Virus record (IMG/VR): IMGVR_UViG_3300024262_000008
Location: 1-39,910 of that record
Length of the DNA stretch: 39,910 bases
Direction: 5' to 3' (one strand)
Source of the DNA: a virus
Positions 6,949-22,008 of this stretch are shown here, in pieces. A program made the position numbers and the translations under genes. Each line of letters starts with the position of its first letter. The first letter of the stretch is position 1. The notes under the pieces are model-generated. The model made no database searches and was not told the origin of the DNA. It saw only the letters and a program-made list of their open reading frames with translations.

Positions 6949-8148
6949 ATGATTAAAGTAGGAAGCGACTTTTCAGGAGTCGGAGCATTTGACCAAGCTT
7001 TAAAACGGTTAAAAATAGATTACAAAACAGTTTTTTCTTGTGATTGGGATAAATACGCAAGGCAAACATACATCGAAAACTATGGACAACCAGACTATTA
7101 TCCACATGACGTTTACGAGCGTGAAATACCAAAGGAGAGTATTGATATTTACATGACCTCTCCACCTTGCCAAGCATTTAGTTTAGCAGGAAATAGAAAA
7201 GGAGAGAGTGAAGAAAGAGGAGTTTTATTTTATAATAGTCATGAGTTTATAGTAAAGAACAAACCACGCTTTTTTATATTTGAGAATGTTAAAGGATTAC
7301 TTTCAGATGATGGAGGCAGAACCTTTCAAAGATGGATTGATTATTTAGCTAAATCGGTAAATGGAACACCTCTTGTATTTCCACACGAAGAATCTGCAAA
7401 TTATCATGTCTATCATAAGGTGCTAAACTCCAAAGAACATGGTGTGCCTCAAAATAGAGAACGAATCTTTATAATAGGCATTCGAGATGATGCCGACAAT
7501 AACTTCACCTTCCCTCCGAAAGAGCATTTGAAAAAAGGGTTAAAGGATGTTTTAGAAGATGATGTTGATGAAAAGTACTTTTTAAGTGAGAAAATGCTCA
7601 AAGGATTAATGAAATCTAACGAAAACAACGACTTCAAAGGTAAGTTCGAGCCATTACTCGGAACGGAAGAACATGCTAAATGTATCACTACTGCAGCTGG
7701 GAGCAGAAAAACAGATAACTTCATAAAGGTTGGGTACATAAACAAAGACACTCAAGGAGGGCAGGTGTTTTCATACAGAGGTATTTCTCCAACGCTATCT
7801 GCAGGAACACATGGATACGCTAATGGCTATGTTCAAATAAAATCAGCAACTTCAAAAGGTTATGAAACGGCAAAAATAGGAGACTCAATAAACTTCAGTC
7901 AACCAAACTCCGAAACTCGAAGAGGAAGAGTAGGTAAAGGAGTTGCACAAACATTAGATACAGCATGTAATCAAGCCACAATAACACACGAAAGAATAAG
8001 AAGGTTAACACCTAGAGAGTGCTTTAGACTCCAGGACTTCCCCGATACTTTCAAAATGCCTTGTTCAGATTCTCAGATGTATAAACAAGCGGGCAACTCC
8101 ATCCCGGTGGGATTATTGGTAAAAATACTCGAAAGGCTACCTTTGTAA
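6949..8148 (+). CDS. C5-cytosine DNA methyltransferase
   Basis: A 399-residue enzyme of the Dcm/M.HhaI type. Motifs in order: I (GSDFSGVGAFDQAL, 5-18), IV with catalytic Cys (SPPCQAFSLAGNR, C74), VI (FENVKGLL, 111-118), VIII (QNRERIFIIG), a variable target-recognition region in the middle, then IX (RRLTPRECFRLQDFP) and X (QAGNSIPVGLLV). All are intact, so it is probably active and makes 5-methylcytosine. No restriction enzyme is nearby, so it probably protects phage DNA from host restriction. The site recognised cannot be read from sequence. Confidence 0.94.
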   Translation: MIKVGSDFSGVGAFDQALKRLKIDYKTVFSCDWDKYARQTYIENYGQPDYYPHDVYEREIPKESIDIYMTSPPCQAFSLAGNRKGESEERGVLFYNSHEFIVKNKPRFFIFENVKGLLSDDGGRTFQRWIDYLAKSVNGTPLVFPHEESANYHVYHKVLNSKEHGVPQNRERIFIIGIRDDADNNFTFPPKEHLKKGLKDVLEDDVDEKYFLSEKMLKGLMKSNENNDFKGKFEPLLGTEEHAKCITTAAGSRKTDNFIKVGYINKDTQGGQVFSYRGISPTLSAGTHGYANGYVQIKSATSKGYETAKIGDSINFSQPNSETRRGRVGKGVAQTLDTACNQATITHERIRRLTPRECFRLQDFPDTFKMPCSDSQMYKQAGNSIPVGLLVKILERLPL

Positions 8149-9041: not shown

Positions 9042-9286
9042 TTAAGGATAAAATAAGCAAAGTATCAGGCCGACCTGACTTGGTTTATACCTCAATTAAA
9101 CGAGGACTGTATAAAAAGCGAATTGCTCCAAAAGGAGGAACGTTCTTAATAGTAAAAATAAAGCACGAGAAGAATCAAGCGACATACTCTTCGCACCATC
9201 TCATTCCAGTTGATACAAAACCTGAACAAATCGAAGCGTTGGAAACTGCGTTAATAAACAACTTAAGGAGCAAATACGAAATATAA
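9005..9286 (+). CDS. Unknown small basic protein
   Basis: A 93-residue protein (MDNRTEEQKQPVVKDKISK...), basic, with a probable beta core (GGTFLIVKIKHEKNQATYSSHHLIPVD) and a helical end. The start overlaps the previous gene by 37 bases and the stop overlaps the next start by one base (TAATG). No family recognised. Confidence 0.6.
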   Translation: MDNRTEEQKQPVVKDKISKVSGRPDLVYTSIKRGLYKKRIAPKGGTFLIVKIKHEKNQATYSSHHLIPVDTKPEQIEALETALINNLRSKYEI

Positions 9287-9657
9287 TGGAGATACTAATC
9301 AAAGCACTAATAATAAGCCTTTTTTGTGTAGGCTTGAGAATAATATCAGGTCCGGGAATGCTTCTCTACTTTTTGAGGATGCCTTACGAGTATTACAAAA
9401 ACTATGGTGTATGGGCAAAACACTTTGAGATGAATGAAAGTTTTGAGTTGCCACAGAGCGCAATAAGAAGATACAATCTTGCATCATACCTACTTAAGCC
9501 AATAATCGGTTGTGGCACTTGCATGGCCTCTGTTTGGACTATTGTAATCGAACTCGGATATTATAACACATTCACGATTCAATCAGTAATCATTGCTTTT
9601 GTAGTGGCTGCATTGAACTCTATTATTCACGCTTATTACGAGAAACTAACAAAATAA
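9286..9657 (+). CDS. Multi-pass membrane protein with CxxC
   Basis: A 123-residue protein with about three hydrophobic segments (4-22, 70-92 and 98-115) and a central soluble part. A KPIIGCGTCMASVW motif (71-84, C76 and C79) sits at the start of the second membrane segment. Membrane proteins with such a Cys pair recur in Bacteroidota phages, but their function is unknown to me. Superinfection exclusion or membrane takeover are only guesses. Confidence 0.65.
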   Translation: MEILIKALIISLFCVGLRIISGPGMLLYFLRMPYEYYKNYGVWAKHFEMNESFELPQSAIRRYNLASYLLKPIIGCGTCMASVWTIVIELGYYNTFTIQSVIIAFVVAALNSIIHAYYEKLTK

Positions 9658-10153: not shown

Positions 10154-11350
10154 ATGGCAAAGACAACCAATTTCAATTTAACAGAACTAAAACCGAACCT
10201 TGACAATCCGAGGTTTATCTCCGACGAAAAGCTCGAAGAACTAAAGACATCTATTACCAAATTCAAAAGAATGATGGAGTTGCGTCCTATCATTTACGAT
10301 GAAGACATGGTAATCCTTGGGGGTAATATGCGTTACACAGCTTTGATGGCTTTGAAGCGACACAAAGTACCACCTGAATGGGTTAAGCAAGTAGTCGGAC
10401 TAACAGCCGAAGAGAAGCGCGAGTTTATTATAAAGGATAACGTCGGCTTTGGAGAGTGGGATTGGGAAGTTCTACATGGAGATTGGGACACAGAAAAACT
10501 AGGAGAGTGGGGACTTGATGTTGTGCCATTTGAAGAGGACACTGTATTGGAAGGAAAAGAGGACGACTTCGACGTGCCAGTTGGAGGAAGCGAAACAGAT
10601 ATTGTACTCGGAGACCTTATTGAAATCGGCCACCATAGATTACTATGCGGAAGCTCAACCGAAACCGACACATGGGAAAAGGTAATGGACGGAAAACTGT
10701 GCGACCTTGTCGTTACGGATCCACCATACAATGTAGATTACACCGGGAAAACAAAAGACTCCCTTAAAATCGAAAACGATAAGAAGGAAGACAGCGACTT
10801 TTACCAATTCCTTTATGACTTCTACACAGCACTCGGAGCATACACAAAAAAAGGTGGCGCATGGTACGTTTGGCATGCTGACTCCGAAGGAGCGAATTTT
10901 CGAAGCGCAATGGCTAACTCCGGGATAATGGTTAAACAATGTCTTATTTGGGTTAAAAACTCCATGGTAATGGGACGACAAGATTACCATTGGCAACACG
11001 AACCTTGCCTTTACGGATGGAAAGAAGGTGCAGCACACTCATGGTTTACTGATAGGAAACAGACAACTGTCATGAACTTCGATAGACCATCAAGGAATAC
11101 GGAACACCCAACAATGAAACCAATCCCTTTAATCTCATACCAAATAACAAACTCATCCAAACAAGGAGACTTAGTTTGCGACGGCTTTTTAGGGAGTGGA
11201 ACTACTATGGTTGCAGCACACCAATTAGAAAGAACATGCTTTGGAATGGAGCTTGATCCAAAATACTGCCAAGTGATAGTTGACCGTATGATGAAACTAG
11301 ACGCTGACCTTGTCGTAAAGATTAACGGGAAGAAGTACAAAAAGAAGTAA
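10154..11350 (+). CDS. ParB-domain DNA methyltransferase (amino-methylating)
   Basis: A 398-residue fusion. The N-terminal ParB/sulfiredoxin-like domain (about 8-125) has NPRFISDEKLEELKTSI (18-34) and GGNMRYTALMAL (56-67), the nucleotide-binding box of the family. The C-terminal part is a beta-class amino methyltransferase with motif IV TDPPYNVDYTG (188-198), then the SAM motif FLGSGTTMVAAHQLE and GMELDPKYCQVIVDRM near the end. The product is N6-methyladenine or N4-methylcytosine; sequence alone does not decide. Such fusions often lie just before the terminase genes of phages, as here. No restriction partner is present. Confidence 0.9.
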   Translation: MAKTTNFNLTELKPNLDNPRFISDEKLEELKTSITKFKRMMELRPIIYDEDMVILGGNMRYTALMALKRHKVPPEWVKQVVGLTAEEKREFIIKDNVGFGEWDWEVLHGDWDTEKLGEWGLDVVPFEEDTVLEGKEDDFDVPVGGSETDIVLGDLIEIGHHRLLCGSSTETDTWEKVMDGKLCDLVVTDPPYNVDYTGKTKDSLKIENDKKEDSDFYQFLYDFYTALGAYTKKGGAWYVWHADSEGANFRSAMANSGIMVKQCLIWVKNSMVMGRQDYHWQHEPCLYGWKEGAAHSWFTDRKQTTVMNFDRPSRNTEHPTMKPIPLISYQITNSSKQGDLVCDGFLGSGTTMVAAHQLERTCFGMELDPKYCQVIVDRMMKLDADLVVKINGKKYKKK

Positions 11351-11826: not shown

Positions 11827-12270
11827 ATGGCAAAGAAAAACACCAAAAACGAAGAGCAAAAGGAAGACCAAGAACGCACGAAAAAGGCGAAGGAGTCCAT
11901 GTTGGTTGCGTTGGAATCTACTCTTGGAGTGGTAACCCCTGCGTGTAAGTCTGTTGGTATAAGCCGTCGAACGTTTTACACTTGGAAGTTAGAGGACAAT
12001 GACTTCAAAAAGGCTGTGGAGGATATTGAGAACATTGCTCTTGATTTTGCTGAAAGCCACCTGCATAAGAATATAAAAAAAGGTAAGGAATCGTCAACCA
12101 TATTCTATTTAAAAACTAAAGGCCGTGGCCGAGGTTACATTGAGAAAAAGGAAATGGACGTTACTACTGGTGGAGAGAAGATAAACCAAACTGTCGACCT
12201 TACTAAATTAGACACCGAAACATTACGAGCATTAAAAGAAGCTGCAAAGAACGATGAAGATAACAACTGA
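11827..12270 (+). CDS. Terminase small subunit
   Basis: A 147-residue protein. After a Lys/Glu-rich start there is a helix-turn-helix (ALESTLGVVTPACKSVGISRRTFYTWKLEDNDFKKAVEDI, about 28-67) of the type in terminase small subunits, which bind the packaging site. The middle (HLHKNIKKGKESSTIFYLKTKGRGRGYIEK) also fits this family. The end is acidic. It overlaps the large subunit gene by 17 bases, the usual arrangement. Confidence 0.85.
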   Translation: MAKKNTKNEEQKEDQERTKKAKESMLVALESTLGVVTPACKSVGISRRTFYTWKLEDNDFKKAVEDIENIALDFAESHLHKNIKKGKESSTIFYLKTKGRGRGYIEKKEMDVTTGGEKINQTVDLTKLDTETLRALKEAAKNDEDNN

Positions 12271-13699
12271 TGAAGTACTGATTGAATTATCGAGACGTCA
12301 TCTGTTGGACTATACACACCAAACGATGGTGGAGTTTCAGGCAACACGCTTTCATAAAACATACTATGAGGTGTTAAACCTATTTGCTGAGAAGAAGATA
12401 AAAAACCTAATGGTTACTATTCCACCTCAACATGGAAAGAGTACCGGCTCAACAATACAGCTCCCTTCTTACATACTCGGCAAGTCTCCAAACACCAAAA
12501 TAGCAGTTGGTTCGTACTCATCCACATTTGCAAAGAAGTTCAATAGGCAAATACAAAGGATAATTGACACCAAAACTTATCACGACATATTCCCGGGAAC
12601 AACCCTTAACCAATCAAACGTCGTAACTGTATCATCAAACTATTTAAGAAACTCTGAAGAGTTCGAAATAGTAAATCGTAGAGGCTCGCTAAAAGCGGTG
12701 GGACGTGGTGGCCCGTTAACTGGAAACCCGGTTGATGTTATGATAATGGATGATTTATACAAGGACGCAGCCGAGGGCAACAGCCCGATTGTAAGGGCTT
12801 CTGTTTGGGATTGGTACTCTTCCGTTGTAACTAAACGTTTGCACAATGATAGTCAACAGCTTATTGTATTCACTAGGTGGCATGAGGACGACCTTATTGG
12901 TATGCTCGAGAAGAAGGACGAGGTAATTACCATTGAATCACTAGAGGAAATTGAAGACCTTGAGGAAGGTTTCGACGGTTGGATAAAGATAAACTTCGAA
13001 GCAATAAAGGTTAGTGAAGCAACAGAGCTTGATCCAAGAGAGGAAGGAGAGCCATTATACCCTGAGAAACATGGATTGAAGAAGCTTGAAAAGGAACGCG
13101 AAATGGATCCTGAAAAGTTTGAGTGCATGAACCAAGGTAACCCAACATCACAAGAAGGACTTTTATACCATCCCTTCAAAACGTATGGCCGAGTGCCTGA
13201 ATTACGAGAACGCAAAAATTATACGGACTCGGCTGATAGTGGTCAGGATTACTTATGCTCAATCAACTATGGCATGCCCTTGGATGAAGCGGACAACAAT
13301 ATTTATGTAACGGACGTGCTTTATACACAAAAGGGTGTTGAACACACAGAGCCTTGGATGATAGATTTACTATTGAAAGGAAAGATTGGTGTTGCAGATA
13401 TTGAACGCGCTCCAGGGACAAGGCTATGGGCCGAGGCAATCACAAGCGCAGTCGAAAAATACTGCTCTGTTAACGTATTCAGTCAAACGCAAAACAAAGA
13501 AGCAAGAATATACACGAACAGCGCAACGGTAAACCGAAGGTTAGTATTCCCGGAGGACTGGCACATACGTTGGCCCGAATTTTACAACCACGTTAGGTTA
13601 TACAAGAAGCTGTTCAAGGCCAACAAAAACGACGACTCTGCAGATACATTGACCGGGGTAATTGAAATGGCAAGCGAGGGAGATTTCTTTGTATTCTGA
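12254..13699 (+). CDS. Terminase large subunit
   Basis: A 481-residue packaging motor. The ATPase domain has Walker A PPQHGKST (57-64), Walker B VMIMDD (162-167) and the coupling segment VFTRWHEDDL (205-214). The C-terminal RNase H-like nuclease has acidic residues in TDSADSGQDY (D325, D328), ADIERAPG (about 381-388) and NDDSADTL (459-466). All key residues are visible and the length is normal. With the small subunit it cuts and packages DNA into the prohead. The packaging type (cos or headful) cannot be fixed from sequence, though a circular contig fits permuted headful ends. Confidence 0.93.
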   Translation: MKITTDEVLIELSRRHLLDYTHQTMVEFQATRFHKTYYEVLNLFAEKKIKNLMVTIPPQHGKSTGSTIQLPSYILGKSPNTKIAVGSYSSTFAKKFNRQIQRIIDTKTYHDIFPGTTLNQSNVVTVSSNYLRNSEEFEIVNRRGSLKAVGRGGPLTGNPVDVMIMDDLYKDAAEGNSPIVRASVWDWYSSVVTKRLHNDSQQLIVFTRWHEDDLIGMLEKKDEVITIESLEEIEDLEEGFDGWIKINFEAIKVSEATELDPREEGEPLYPEKHGLKKLEKEREMDPEKFECMNQGNPTSQEGLLYHPFKTYGRVPELRERKNYTDSADSGQDYLCSINYGMPLDEADNNIYVTDVLYTQKGVEHTEPWMIDLLLKGKIGVADIERAPGTRLWAEAITSAVEKYCSVNVFSQTQNKEARIYTNSATVNRRLVFPEDWHIRWPEFYNHVRLYKKLFKANKNDDSADTLTGVIEMASEGDFFVF

Positions 13700-13741: not shown

Positions 13742-14992
13742 ATGGGTAAGATTCAAAACTTTTTTTCAGGACTCTTCAGCGAAAACAAATTACATCGTTA
13801 CGAAGTCTACCAAATAGGTGACCCTCGTGCGTTCGATTTCGGAGGTCATAGTTCAACGATAAACCATGCTTACAACCGAAATAGTGACGTCTATTCCATC
13901 ATTAAAAGACTGTCAACGAACGCTTCAAAGATACCAAGACAACTATGGAAGGAAGCAAGAAACGGAGAGTGGGAGCAAGTACATGAAGGGGACCTTTGGG
14001 AGATAGTTACTAAGCAGCCAAACCCAACACAAAACATTTATGACTACGTAGAAGAGTCGATTACCAACCTACTTCTTAGAGGCGAGGTATTCAGAAAAGG
14101 AAGAAAGCTTGTAGGTTTTGGAGATACATTTCAGGAGCTTTATGTGTTAAATAACGCAATGATTAAAGTAGATAGTGAAATTATTGGTTACAGAGCGCAG
14201 CCAACAAAATATTGTATTACAATTGACGGTAAAGACATACCGATTGAATTAGACGAAATAAACCACGTGCTGTATTATAACCCTTCTTCACTAGCAATGA
14301 AACAGTATAGAGGACTGTCTCCATTGGAGGCAGGAATATTACCTTTGATTTCATCCACCGAGAACAAGACAGCGCAGTCTGTTATGGTAAAAAACGGTGC
14401 GCCTCGTGGCATTTTATCTTCGAGAGGTAACAGAGGAATGACTGAAAACCAAGGAAAACAATTGCAAGAAGCAAACGACCAACGTATGTTAGGCTCTGAG
14501 AAATTCGGAAAACCAATCATTACGAGTGCAGACGTTGACTTTGTAAAAATGGGATTGGATCCAACTCAGTTAAAAATATTAGAATCGTCTGTAATGAGCA
14601 AGCGAGACTTGTGCGATTTGTATGGTGTTGACAGTTCATTGTTTAATGATCCTGCAAATAAGACTTATAACAATCGCAAGGAAGCTGAGAAAGCAATGTG
14701 GACAAACGCAGTTATCCCGGCAAACGAAAAAGATATTCGTGGCCAATCGGAGTGGCTTCTTCCTGCATACAACAAACGCGACAAGACCACTTATCAAGTA
14801 AGGCAGGATTTATCTTTATTGCCAGTACTTCACGAGGACGAAGCAAGAAAAGCAGTAGGTCAAGAACGTGTCAGTAAAATAATAATTAGTACATTAGTGG
14901 CAGATTTATCGAGAACGCAGAAGATAAACACGCTGATGCACACATTAAATTTGTCGGAAGACGACGCAACAAACTTAGTTGGTAATGCCTAA
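13742..14992 (+). CDS. HK97-type portal protein
   Basis: A 416-residue portal protein of the HK97/PF04860 type, which forms the dodecameric ring for DNA packaging and tail attachment. Typical segments are AYNRNSDVYSIIKRLSTNASKIPRQLWKE near the N-terminus, the wing and stem region around NHVLYYNPSSLAMKQYRGLSPLEAG, the NGAPRGILSS motif, and VMSKRDLCDLYGVDSSLFND. Position between the large terminase and the prohead protease fits. The stop is overlapped by the next small ORF. Confidence 0.9.
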   Translation: MGKIQNFFSGLFSENKLHRYEVYQIGDPRAFDFGGHSSTINHAYNRNSDVYSIIKRLSTNASKIPRQLWKEARNGEWEQVHEGDLWEIVTKQPNPTQNIYDYVEESITNLLLRGEVFRKGRKLVGFGDTFQELYVLNNAMIKVDSEIIGYRAQPTKYCITIDGKDIPIELDEINHVLYYNPSSLAMKQYRGLSPLEAGILPLISSTENKTAQSVMVKNGAPRGILSSRGNRGMTENQGKQLQEANDQRMLGSEKFGKPIITSADVDFVKMGLDPTQLKILESSVMSKRDLCDLYGVDSSLFNDPANKTYNNRKEAEKAMWTNAVIPANEKDIRGQSEWLLPAYNKRDKTTYQVRQDLSLLPVLHEDEARKAVGQERVSKIIISTLVADLSRTQKINTLMHTLNLSEDDATNLVGNA

Positions 14993-15925: not shown

Positions 15926-15961
15926 ACTAACGTCGAGCTGAGACAGAAAATTAGCAACAAA

Positions 15962-17542
15962 ATGCAAAAAAGAAAAACAAAAACAAACAAACGAATGAAA
16001 CAAGTTAAGAGCTTCAATGGAAGAGTGCTTGGATTTTTCGCCCTTGTTGTTGGGATGGTATTATTCGCAGCGACTGGAAGTGCTATGGACTACATGGAAA
16101 TGGCAGGATTAAACATTAGTGAAGGAGTTGAGACTATCGTAGGAGGTATGTCTTGGGCATCTGTTCCATTGATGGTAACTATTAAAGGTGTGTCAGGTAT
16201 TACTGACGGGACCTTATTTGATGTAACGAAAGGTTTTGAAGGCTTTAAACAAGCAAAAGGAATCAACGAAGCTGCATTTAGTGAAATGACTGCAAAGGAT
16301 GTGGCCAACTTATACAGTGAGTATATTGGTTTAACTGTTCAAGCAGGTATTGAAAACGCAACCAAAACGGACACAGAAACCAAAGAAGCGTTGGAGATAA
16401 TGAAAAAAGAAATGAACCACACAATGAATGAATTAGTTAAATCTAATCAGGATGTGCTTAAAACTATGGCGAGCGAATTGACTGCGATGGTTGAGAAAGC
16501 TAAGACTGAAGGATCAACTAAAGGTGGGTTTCAAACTAGATTGAAGGAAGCTTTCGATGCAAAGAAAGAAGAGTTCGAATCTGCATTAGCTCAAAACAAA
16601 TCTACAGTTTCAATGGTAGTTGAGAAAGCAACTCAAACTTATGGAGACATTACTGATGGAGAAGACTTCGCGCAAATGCGTCCTGGAGTAACTGACTCAC
16701 CAGTTAGACGTCCAAGAGTAAGAAGTTTATTTTCTACTATTCCATTACAAACTGAGTTTTACAAGTATGTTGAACAAGAAACAGTTATTCGTGACGCTCA
16801 AAACGTTGCAAAATGTGCTGCTGTTGTATCTACTACTAAAGAAACTTTAATTGTAAGAGACATGCACACGAAAGTAATTAAGGACATGATCGACTTCTGT
16901 CGTTTATTTATCTCTGATTACCCATTCATGCAATCAAGAATCAATAAGTTATTGAACGAGTCTGTTGCTTTGAGAGAAGATAGTCAGTTACTTTTAGGTA
17001 CTGGTTTAGGAGAGGAAACTTTCTCAATCGATTCTTATTCTTCTGAGTTCTCTGCAGCTAACCCTGCTTGTGTTCTTACAGCGAAGATTCAAGATGCTTC
17101 TATGGTTGATTTGATCTTAGGAATGAGAACTCAAATTGAAATCTTAGGAGAGCAAGAAGCGTTCATGCCGAATGTAGTATTAGTTAACCTTTGCGATTGG
17201 TTCTTAGGAGTTGAGTCTAGAAAAGACTTAAACAACAACTACTTGGATTCAAGAGTAACTGTTGTTAATGGTGTACCTTACATCGCAGGAATGATGGTTA
17301 TTCCATTGCAGAACGTTGCAGCAAATTCTCTTTATGTGTTTGACTCTACTAAAGCTGAGGTTTTGGATAGAATGACATTTGAAGTTGAGATTGCTTTCCA
17401 AAATAAAGACAACTGGGAGAAGGAAATCGCGACAATCAAAGGTTTATGTAGAGTAAACTTATGGTGTCCAGTAAACTGGCAAAACGCTTTCATGAAGTGT
17501 TCTGACATTACTACTGCTGTTGTAGCGATTGACAAACCATAG
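15962..17542 (+). CDS. Major capsid protein precursor (HK97 fold) with signal-like N-terminus
   Basis: A 526-residue precursor. Residues 1-21 are basic and about 22-42 are strongly hydrophobic (VLGFFALVVGMVLFAAT then GSAMD), which looks like a signal peptide or membrane anchor. Residues about 107-190 form a long helical region (KEALEIMKKEMNHTMNELVKS) like the scaffold delta domain of HK97. The capsid domain probably starts near 230 (TQTYGDITDGEDFAQMRPG) and has the expected strands and long helix (DFCRLFISDYPFMQSRINKLL). The prohead protease upstream probably removes the first part. A hydrophobic start is unusual for a capsid protein. Confidence 0.82.
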   Translation: MQKRKTKTNKRMKQVKSFNGRVLGFFALVVGMVLFAATGSAMDYMEMAGLNISEGVETIVGGMSWASVPLMVTIKGVSGITDGTLFDVTKGFEGFKQAKGINEAAFSEMTAKDVANLYSEYIGLTVQAGIENATKTDTETKEALEIMKKEMNHTMNELVKSNQDVLKTMASELTAMVEKAKTEGSTKGGFQTRLKEAFDAKKEEFESALAQNKSTVSMVVEKATQTYGDITDGEDFAQMRPGVTDSPVRRPRVRSLFSTIPLQTEFYKYVEQETVIRDAQNVAKCAAVVSTTKETLIVRDMHTKVIKDMIDFCRLFISDYPFMQSRINKLLNESVALREDSQLLLGTGLGEETFSIDSYSSEFSAANPACVLTAKIQDASMVDLILGMRTQIEILGEQEAFMPNVVLVNLCDWFLGVESRKDLNNNYLDSRVTVVNGVPYIAGMMVIPLQNVAANSLYVFDSTKAEVLDRMTFEVEIAFQNKDNWEKEIATIKGLCRVNLWCPVNWQNAFMKCSDITTAVVAIDKP

Positions 17543-20076: not shown

Positions 20077-20682
20077 ATGAAAAGAATTTTTGGCGATACA
20101 TTCAGAGCAACTGGTAATTCAAACGACCCTTCAGTTATCAACTTTAATATATTAGGGTTGCACAAGAAGGAGTATTTCGATACTAAAGGAGATTTAATAA
20201 AGATTGAACTTTACAAGTCATACGATGAAGAAACAAGCATATTCACAAATCTTGCAATTACAGACGAAAGAACTTACACAAGAAGTCCACAAACTGGATT
20301 AATAATAAAAAGAGATACTGTAATAACTTGGTACTATGAAGGTGGAGAAGTCGGACACACAACCTCAACAATCGAAAAATATTATTCAGCAAAGAAAGGT
20401 TTTGTTGCAAATAAGAGAGCAAGACGTAATGTAATTGACCAAGCTTCAATGTATTTGTATTCTCAATTATTAGCAAATGATGCTGTAAACGCAGATTCAA
20501 ATGTTGATGATTTTGAAAGCTTAACAAATTCAGCACAATCGAAATACATTAATTCTAATATTCAACCTTTGCTTGACATCATTACAAATTCAACAGACAA
20601 TACAAAAGACGAATACAGAGATTACATAACCGCAGCGATGCAAACAGTTTTACTTGGAATACTAACAATAAATTATAAATAA
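20077..20682 (+). CDS. Unknown virion-associated protein
   Basis: A 201-residue protein: beta-rich first half (IELYKSYDEETSIFTNLAITDERTYTRSP...) and helical second half ending in TAAMQTVLLGILTINYK. No family recognised. It overlaps the next gene by one base (TAATG) and lies after the two fibre-like genes, which suggests a role in the same appendage or its assembly. Confidence 0.5.
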   Translation: MKRIFGDTFRATGNSNDPSVINFNILGLHKKEYFDTKGDLIKIELYKSYDEETSIFTNLAITDERTYTRSPQTGLIIKRDTVITWYYEGGEVGHTTSTIEKYYSAKKGFVANKRARRNVIDQASMYLYSQLLANDAVNADSNVDDFESLTNSAQSKYINSNIQPLLDIITNSTDNTKDEYRDYITAAMQTVLLGILTINYK

Positions 20683-21263
20683 TGAATTGGAAGAAAGAAT
20701 TAAAACCGATTAGTGAATTGATTGCAGCCTTGTTGCTTTCCTTCATTTTAGTCCTTGGATTTATTTATAATGTATCAAAGCCATTGTGGGATTACAGAAA
20801 GCTTTCATTGGTTGGCCGTTTTGAAGCCACTCTTCAATGGTATGAGGACATGATTATACAGACTGTTTATGTATTATTTTATGTATTAAGGCACGTATTA
20901 GTGTCGGTGTTTTACTTCGTGACATTTAGATTTTGGAAAGCGATTAAACACTTGTTTCATGAAGTTGCAAGAGGCATTGATTTGCTTGGAAACGTACTTG
21001 CAGGAGAAATGATTGAGGACTTTATTACACCGGTTGAAAAGACTTACTTCGGCCTTGGTAAAATTACCATTAGTGCTGCGACTGGTTACGTTGAGCATTT
21101 GGCTTCTTCGGATCCAAAAGCAATGAATAAATTTGGTTGGTTTATAACCCGATCATTGAATAAATCGTTTAACGAAGAGAAGCATTCGATTTGGAGTTGG
21201 GAGCGAGAGATAAAGGACCATCCTTTGTATGGTAGAACAGATTATTTTGATTTAAGCATTTAA
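20682..21263 (+). CDS. Membrane protein with two hydrophobic segments
   Basis: A 193-residue protein with membrane segments at about 13-30 (LIAALLLSFILVLGFIYNV) and 60-85 (QTVYVLFYVLRHVLVSVFYFVTF). The soluble C-terminal part contains WFITRSLNKSFNEEKHSIWSWEREIKDHPLYGRTDYFD. The next gene also encodes a membrane protein, so the cluster may concern lysis or membrane attachment. No family recognised. Confidence 0.55.
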   Translation: MNWKKELKPISELIAALLLSFILVLGFIYNVSKPLWDYRKLSLVGRFEATLQWYEDMIIQTVYVLFYVLRHVLVSVFYFVTFRFWKAIKHLFHEVARGIDLLGNVLAGEMIEDFITPVEKTYFGLGKITISAATGYVEHLASSDPKAMNKFGWFITRSLNKSFNEEKHSIWSWEREIKDHPLYGRTDYFDLSI

Positions 21264-21272
21264 GAAAGTATT

Positions 21273-21548
21273 ATGACTGACAAATTAATAGGCGAGTTTT
21301 TGAATTACGGTGTAGCAGGGTTGATGATAATTACCTTGCTTGTTTTTATTCGATTCCTAATTGTTTACATAAATAAACTTGACACCAATCATTCCCAAGA
21401 GCGTGAAGATTGGAAAAAAGAAAGCAACCGTCATGTAGAGAAGTTTGCTGAGGTGGTTGAGAAAAGCACAGAAGCGTTAACAACTATGAATGGCAAAATT
21501 AAGGGCCACCATGACACCTTAAAACGTATTGAGGACAAAATCAGCTGA
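21273..21548 (+). CDS. BhlA/UviB-like holin candidate
   Basis: A 91-residue protein: a short start, one membrane segment at about 12-32 (YGVAGLMIITLLVFIRFLIVYI), then a charged helix with coiled-coil character to the end (REDWKKESNRHVEKFAEVVEKSTEAL...KRIEDKIS). This layout is that of the BhlA/UviB holin-like family. Its place in the middle of the structural genes is away from the lysis cassette at 36036-37234, so another role in the virion or membrane is possible. Confidence 0.55.
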   Translation: MTDKLIGEFLNYGVAGLMIITLLVFIRFLIVYINKLDTNHSQEREDWKKESNRHVEKFAEVVEKSTEALTTMNGKIKGHHDTLKRIEDKIS

Positions 21549-21549
21549 C

Positions 21550-22008
21550 ATGAGCAAACTCCAGGACATAGCTAAAAAACACATCGTCACACTAATTGTT
21601 GGAGCAATTGCAGTAATATCACCTTTTGTTAAGGACGTTTTTATTACCGGGACAAAAGTAAAAACCAAGGAAGCTTTTATTTCTATGCTAAAGTCGAAAG
21701 AGGGAAGAGAGTTTATTTACCTCGTTTCAGATTCAGCTATAAATGTTACAATGAATGATCCAATGACATGGAACTTTGTCTTTGATAACGACCTTTTTAA
21801 CGGCTATGTTGACAATAAAACAGTCGAATTTACCGGAAGAATGGACTTACAGATAGAGCAAGTGTATAAATCAATGTTTAACAAGGTCGATAGTGTTGCA
21901 AAGGATGTTGGAATAAGAACAGATGAATTAATCCCTTTAGTAACGCAAATGGCAAAGGCCTTTAAACGAGGAGATTTTGAAGTTAGATTTGTAAGAGCTG
22001 ATTTTTAA
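21550..22008 (+). CDS. Unknown protein with N-terminal membrane segment
   Basis: A 152-residue protein starting MSKLQDIAKKHIVTLIVGAIAVISPFV, with one probable membrane segment at about 11-27, followed by a soluble helical domain with conserved-looking aromatic acidic parts (PMTWNFVFDNDLFNGYVDNK). The start is set at ATG 21550, just after the upstream stop, rather than a TTG at 21529. Function unknown; it is the third membrane protein in this trio. Confidence 0.55.
   Translation: MSKLQDIAKKHIVTLIVGAIAVISPFVKDVFITGTKVKTKEAFISMLKSKEGREFIYLVSDSAINVTMNDPMTWNFVFDNDLFNGYVDNKTVEFTGRMDLQIEQVYKSMFNKVDSVAKDVGIRTDELIPLVTQMAKAFKRGDFEVRFVRADF

Follow-up and report, generated by a model that had tools for sequence, protein, structure and literature searches.

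Head module and layout of the capsid protein precursor

The analyzed window, a virus record of 39.9 kb (39,910 nt), carries a standard head module with genes for the terminase, the portal protein, the prohead protease and the major capsid protein (MCP). The features of this module and the segments of the MCP precursor are as follows. KD15 and KD19 are mean Kyte-Doolittle values over 15 and 19 residues, and L002 is the locus of the nearest relative.

12254-13699, + strand: terminase large subunit (phrog_38, 5.1e-82)
13742-14992, + strand: portal protein (PF04860, 1.1e-34), without a hydrophobic segment
15107-15925, + strand: prohead protease of the HK97 type, 272 aa (motifs DSHxDVHLxG, LxDH and HSVxM; profile match)
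15926-15961, + strand: short 5′ leader between the protease and MCP genes (GTCGAGCTGAGACA...ATTAGCAACA common to the window and L002)
15962-17542, + strand: MCP precursor, 526 aa, HK97 fold (PF05065 and Foldseek)
15962-16024, + strand: basic tail, residues 1-21, putatively cytoplasmic (9 K/R, 0 D/E)
16025-16081, + strand: hydrophobic helix 1, residues 22-40, putative first transmembrane segment (KD15 2.75, KD19 2.17)
16082-16132, + strand: acidic loop, residues 41-57, putatively periplasmic, including the end of GSAMD (0 K/R, 4 D/E)
16133-16183, + strand: weaker hydrophobic segment, residues 58-74, putative second transmembrane segment (KD15 1.39)
16247-16624, + strand: helical delta (scaffold) domain, residues 96-221 (predicted helices; members without the hairpin begin here)
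16625-17539, + strand: conserved region, inferred mature shell protein, residues 222-526 (invariant columns)

The first-pass annotation of this DNA, which was made from the letters alone, had called the protein an MCP precursor. This assignment was confirmed by a match to PF05065 (Phage_capsid) at residues 238-498 (E 9.7e-8, 32.2 bits compared to a cut-off of 24.2) and by the similarity of the predicted core to the shells of phiXacJX1, D3 and HK97 (Foldseek: 9lbm, 9ous and 1ohg; E 6e-13 to 1e-11). PF05065 was matched by all 21 members of the MCP family. The prohead protease gene is located directly upstream of the MCP gene. Its 272-aa product had no Pfam match of its own, and PF04586 was detected in one of ten members of the protease family (E 0.007). 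A profile built from known phage prohead proteases matched this family (E 7.5e-20), and the family also gave a profile match to the structural protein of Flavobacterium phage snork9-1 (E 1.3e-46). No hydrophobic segment was found in the portal, protease or terminase of the window.

The MCPs of HK97, D3 and phiXacJX1 share with the window the shell fold, the succession of delta and mature domain, the protease gene directly upstream and the order of the head genes. Unlike the window protein, the examined MCP sequences of D3 and phiXacJX1 have no hydrophobic start and open with the delta domain, and HK97 gp5 likewise begins there.

The delta domain of the window MCP starts only after 95 residues, which include two hydrophobic segments. 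The first-pass annotation had described residues 1-21 as basic, which holds, and residues 22-42 as hydrophobic. The latter segment is real and is placed before the delta domain as described; its strong stretch comprises residues 22-40, and the second, weaker segment, with its hydrophobic stretch at residues 58-72, had been missed. The mean Kyte-Doolittle value over residues 22-36 is 2.75. The highest 19-residue window of the whole MCP was found at residue 22 (2.17), compared to 1.39 beyond the first 80 residues. In shuffled versions of the sequence, 133 of 20,000 trials (0.7%) had such a window among the first 60 residues, which alone is modest evidence for a hydrophobic start. Since one sequence and its shuffles are not compelling, it is the conservation in relatives that makes the hydrophobic start convincing. 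The second segment is more hydrophobic in L002 than in the window (KD15 of 1.73 vs. 1.39).

For the hydrophobic part no usable AlphaFold model was obtained (pLDDT of 55.8 for the full MCP and 43 for the prodomain alone), and searches of the prodomain against Pfam, PHROGs and PDB sequences returned only coiled-coil-like noise. Helices of the delta domain were placed near residues 111-133, 138-182 and 190-210 in both AlphaFold models (low confidence). The block of invariant MCP columns starts at K222/Q225/Y227, and the cut of the prohead protease would fall near K222. Within the shell, C285 (16814-16816) and C313 (16898-16900) are invariant throughout the alignment of 21 MCPs from the window clade; they are perhaps a disulfide or metal site.

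Distribution of the hydrophobic start among related capsid proteins

The first-pass annotation had proposed to look for hydrophobic starts in related capsid proteins and had tied its reading to their presence there. In a first scan, a basic tail and a hydrophobic start were identified in 7 of 9 loci, corresponding to 6 of 7 distinct relatives. Profile scans resulted in about 190 MCPs, and the dereplicated tree of the shell domain comprises 101 proteins. The hydrophobic start was found in 14 of 22 proteins of the window clade and in 18 of 77 proteins of the D3-like clade (dereplicated; one of the 77 unscored). Some relatives therefore lack the segment, but most of the closest ones have it. No prophage relatives were detected when genomes were scanned with the window clade.

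On the shell-domain tree, parsimony requires 20 changes in the presence of the hydrophobic start, of which at least 12 are forced by well-supported branches. Gains and losses of the N-terminal hydrophobic module number at least 12, and it is modular. An example is the pair L145 (with the module) and L061 (without), whose shells are identical at 252 of 290 positions (87%) and whose gene order is the same; the extra stretch of about 66 residues is present in L145 only. Members without the hairpin begin exactly at the delta domain. The module is dispensable for the fold and for general shell assembly, because close relatives do without it. Since some members of the same clade start at the delta domain, the window MCP is a variant of the HK97 type rather than a non-member, although it lacks the usual soluble precursor start with the delta domain first.

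Among control Phage_capsid loci from Pseudomonadota genomes, which were chosen without regard to the trait, a hydrophobic start was found in about 1 of 80 (L296); by sequence reading, many of these control capsids are gene-transfer-agent-like, and a minority of their gene starts is uncertain. Homology between the hydrophobic modules of the window clade and those of the D3-like clade was not demonstrable (hhalign probability of 18%).

A split gene was considered for the hairpin-less head modules of L006, L018, L022 and L027 and rejected, as no separate small membrane protein was found near the MCP there. The MCP of L028 (1776-3359) carries a lipoprotein-like signal (HLSAC) with another hydrophobic stretch about 30 residues further on; L006, its nearest relative, is without any hydrophobic start. 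Elsewhere in the window, a two-TM protein of 123 aa (9286-9657) is 40% identical to the product of L016:2288-2647. The gene of the latter two-TM protein is located between the portal and protease genes and is absent from the other loci compared.

Cultured phages with a hydrophobic MCP start are Mesorhizobium phage vB_MseS-P1, Nostoc phage Nsp-JY10 and Salinibacter phage 3_10. No such start was found in Rivra, Shpa, Mae-JY04 and Tenacibaculum phage JQ, nor in D3, Arctus_1, phi10:1, snork9-1, phiXacJX1 and ST16-OXA48phi5.3. Searches of named phages with the N-terminus only gave alignments that set in where the hydrophobic part ends or at the delta domain; vB_MseS-P1 and the Salinibacter phages were reached by full-length queries, and Nsp-JY10 from a weak N-terminus-only match. 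In Salinibacter phage 3_10 the corresponding product (L307:1309-2691) is annotated as a hypothetical protein; it aligns with the MCP family across 81% of the L009 query, and its start has two hydrophobic stretches but almost no basic tail.

Like the window protein, gp34 of vB_MseS-P1 is an HK97-type MCP with a hydrophobic start before the delta domain (KD19 of 2.74), whereas it belongs to the D3-like clade and has a short second hydrophobic segment. The record of this phage marks the MCP as a virion protein, and such a precursor therefore appears to yield normal virions. In the available part of the corresponding publication, 15 virion proteins are described by mass spectrometry of CsCl-purified particles, and the hydrophobic MCP start goes unmentioned (PMC11409702).

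Predicted membrane hairpin and its possible role in head assembly

For the analysis of charge distribution, 32 representatives with a hydrophobic start were used. Their N-terminal tails contain 94 K/R and 2 D/E in total, and the loops between the hydrophobic segments contain 7 K/R compared to 48 D/E, with 28 of 32 loops free of any K/R; as these counts are drawn from related sequences, their independence is overstated by the Fisher p value. A second hydrophobic segment (KD15 of at least 1.2) was identified in 30 of the 32 representatives, the value for the window being weak (1.39). In L053, L070 and L082 the second segment is very weak, leaving one good segment only, and a simple hairpin is doubtful in these three; the topology is likewise less certain for vB_MseS-P1 with its short second segment. 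Judged by the positive-inside pattern of the charges, the MCP start is probably a membrane hairpin whose two ends are cytoplasmic. An anchor of this kind is preferred over a cleaved signal because the second hydrophobic segment follows in most members.

HK97-type phages cut off the delta domain with their prohead protease. From sequence features, it appears reasonably probable that a membrane-targeting hairpin forms the N-terminus of the MCP precursor, before the delta domain, and that this protease removes hairpin and delta domain together. The two helices of a newly made MCP would enter the inner membrane while both ends stay on the cytoplasmic side. This would keep the delta and shell domains at the cytoplasmic face and concentrate the coat protein where portal and protease can join. 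A cut near residue 222 would then release hairpin and delta domain together and free the shell. We infer that the precursor would actually be inserted and that, as the first-pass annotation had proposed, proheads may be assembled at the membrane and released by the protease, a reading that is supported in part. The wider reading is more tentative: a recurrent, swappable module may make the MCP of a tailed phage a membrane protein, so that the whole lattice and not the portal alone would be laid on the membrane via the inner face of the coat and the head freed by maturation proteolysis. The results suggest that in some tailed phages it is the shell protein itself that is tethered to the membrane while the head is still unfinished.

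The N-terminus of the MCP faces the interior of the HK97 prohead, and the anchor would therefore lie on the concave face. This geometry is a difficulty for an anchor on the MCP; in T4 and SPP1 it is the portal that is anchored instead. The anchor might work at a stage when the capsomers have not yet closed into a shell, insertion might be limited to some of the MCP subunits, or lipid might be taken into the head and subsequently lost. In terms of topology, a shell anchor on the inner face must be removed, or drag lipid inside, before the DNA is packed.

The M13 procoat (pVIII) consists of a basic tail, a hydrophobic helix, an acidic loop and a second helix. It is, like the MCP start of the window, part of a coat-protein precursor with the same layout, whereas its fold and virion are unrelated. 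In filamentous phages the anchored helix belongs to the mature coat, and a cellular peptidase cleaves the leader (PMC3185693). T4 proheads start at the membrane-attached portal gp20 with gp40 and the host protein YidC; as in the assembly proposed here, they are linked to the inner membrane and are released after maturation cleavage (PMC9958956). In contrast to the proposal, the membrane-attached part of T4 is the portal initiator and not the shell protein, and contact is made at the outer side of the portal vertex. T4, which the first-pass annotation had cited alone, is not the sole precedent for membrane-linked prohead assembly. The available part of a report on SPP1 describes open shell lattices and procapsid precursors at the membrane of infected cells, formed in a portal-dependent manner, and contains no mention of a membrane segment in MCP or scaffold, in contrast to the putative one of the window MCP (PMC13212656).

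Full-text searches of openly licensed papers found no description of an HK97-type MCP that bears a membrane segment, an absence which is weak evidence. We class the window protein as an HK97-type MCP whose N-terminal module is new. The site and manner of head nucleation in tailed phages is an open question, just visible by tomography (SPP1, 2026), and a module that is present in one phage and absent in its near twin is a natural experiment on the place of assembly.

Instead of a membrane anchor, the module could be an internal extension of the scaffold. The hydrophobic helices of several hundred subunits would then pack as a core inside the prohead without entering a membrane and would leave upon the protease cut. 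The delta domains are interior in HK97-type proheads, the module is fused straight onto the delta domain and relatives can dispense with it, all of which agrees with such a core. The positive tail, the acidic loop free of K/R and the signal-like layout across many lineages are left unexplained, and we regard this alternative as unlikely.

The basic n-region and the hydrophobic h-region of a Sec signal peptide are both present in the window MCP (9 K/R; KD15 of 2.75). The start could thus be a true signal peptide, cut by the host signal peptidase I or in a few members as a lipoprotein signal, so that processing of the MCP, or of a part of it, would take place on the outer side of the inner membrane. 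Classical-looking AQA, AHA and ALA sites in several proteobacterial members and lipobox-like cysteine motifs in L009, L005 and L028 point in this direction. However, 17 of 32 representatives have an AxA motif past the hydrophobic stretch, compared to 16.6 expected from shuffled sequences, and the window has GSA only. The GSAMD motif, which the first-pass annotation had likened to a signal peptidase site, is shared with L002 and conserved no further, so that a conserved signal-peptidase site is not supported. As a second hydrophobic segment usually follows downstream, and since exporting a shell protein makes no sense when DNA packaging is cytoplasmic, a signal peptide is very unlikely.

It is highly improbable that the hairpins are membrane-active cargo, of which hundreds per head would be freed by the protease to insert into a membrane and time lysis, block superinfection or aid DNA entry. 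The layout resembles that of holin-like small basic two-helix peptides, and the free gain and loss of the module would fit; yet the freed peptides would start within a closed prohead, and the separate small membrane proteins encoded at 20682-22008 could serve lysis.

Translation start of the precursor and further genes of the window

The nearest relative of the window MCP, encoded in L002, shows 73% identity. Between the two, synonymous sites are near saturation, and dN/dS was determined to be about 0.12 for residues 1-42 as well as 43-95, 0.20 for the delta domain and 0.15 for the shell. The hydrophobic start is shown by this computation to be translated and under purifying selection. The first-pass annotation had pointed to an alternative start at 15995, which indeed keeps the hydrophobic segment. 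The start at 15962 is the likelier one, because residues 1-11 are also kept in L002 (MQKRKTKTNKR in the window, MNGRKTKTNKR in L002).

A partial match to AGGAGG (4-5 of 6 bases) was found ahead of the hydrophobic start in most proteobacterial members, the weakest matching in 2-3 of 6 bases; this check was restricted to proteobacterial members, where such Shine-Dalgarno motifs are expected. In L009 no internal in-frame ATG exists between the start and the delta domain. The start call of L190 was judged to be an upstream artefact and was left out of the counts. A wrongly annotated start, with the true one lying past the hydrophobic part, would fit those relatives in which the delta domain comes first. 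It is extremely improbable in view of the selection across residues 1-95, the partial Shine-Dalgarno matches at the upstream start in most proteobacterial members, the lack of an internal ATG in L009 and the named phages annotated with the same kind of start.

In the 5′ leader of the MCP gene, GTCGAGCTGAGACA ... ATTAGCAACA (15932-15961; L002:4970-5000) is kept in the window and in L002 despite the near-saturated synonymous sites, and it is possibly a regulatory element.

Three consecutive small ORFs with hydrophobic segments are located at 20682-22008 and possibly form a lysis cassette. Two further genes may serve DNA modification, as judged from their predicted products: a ParB-like domain fused to a putative adenine-type DNA methylase (10154-11350) and a putative cytosine-type DNA methylase (6949-8148).
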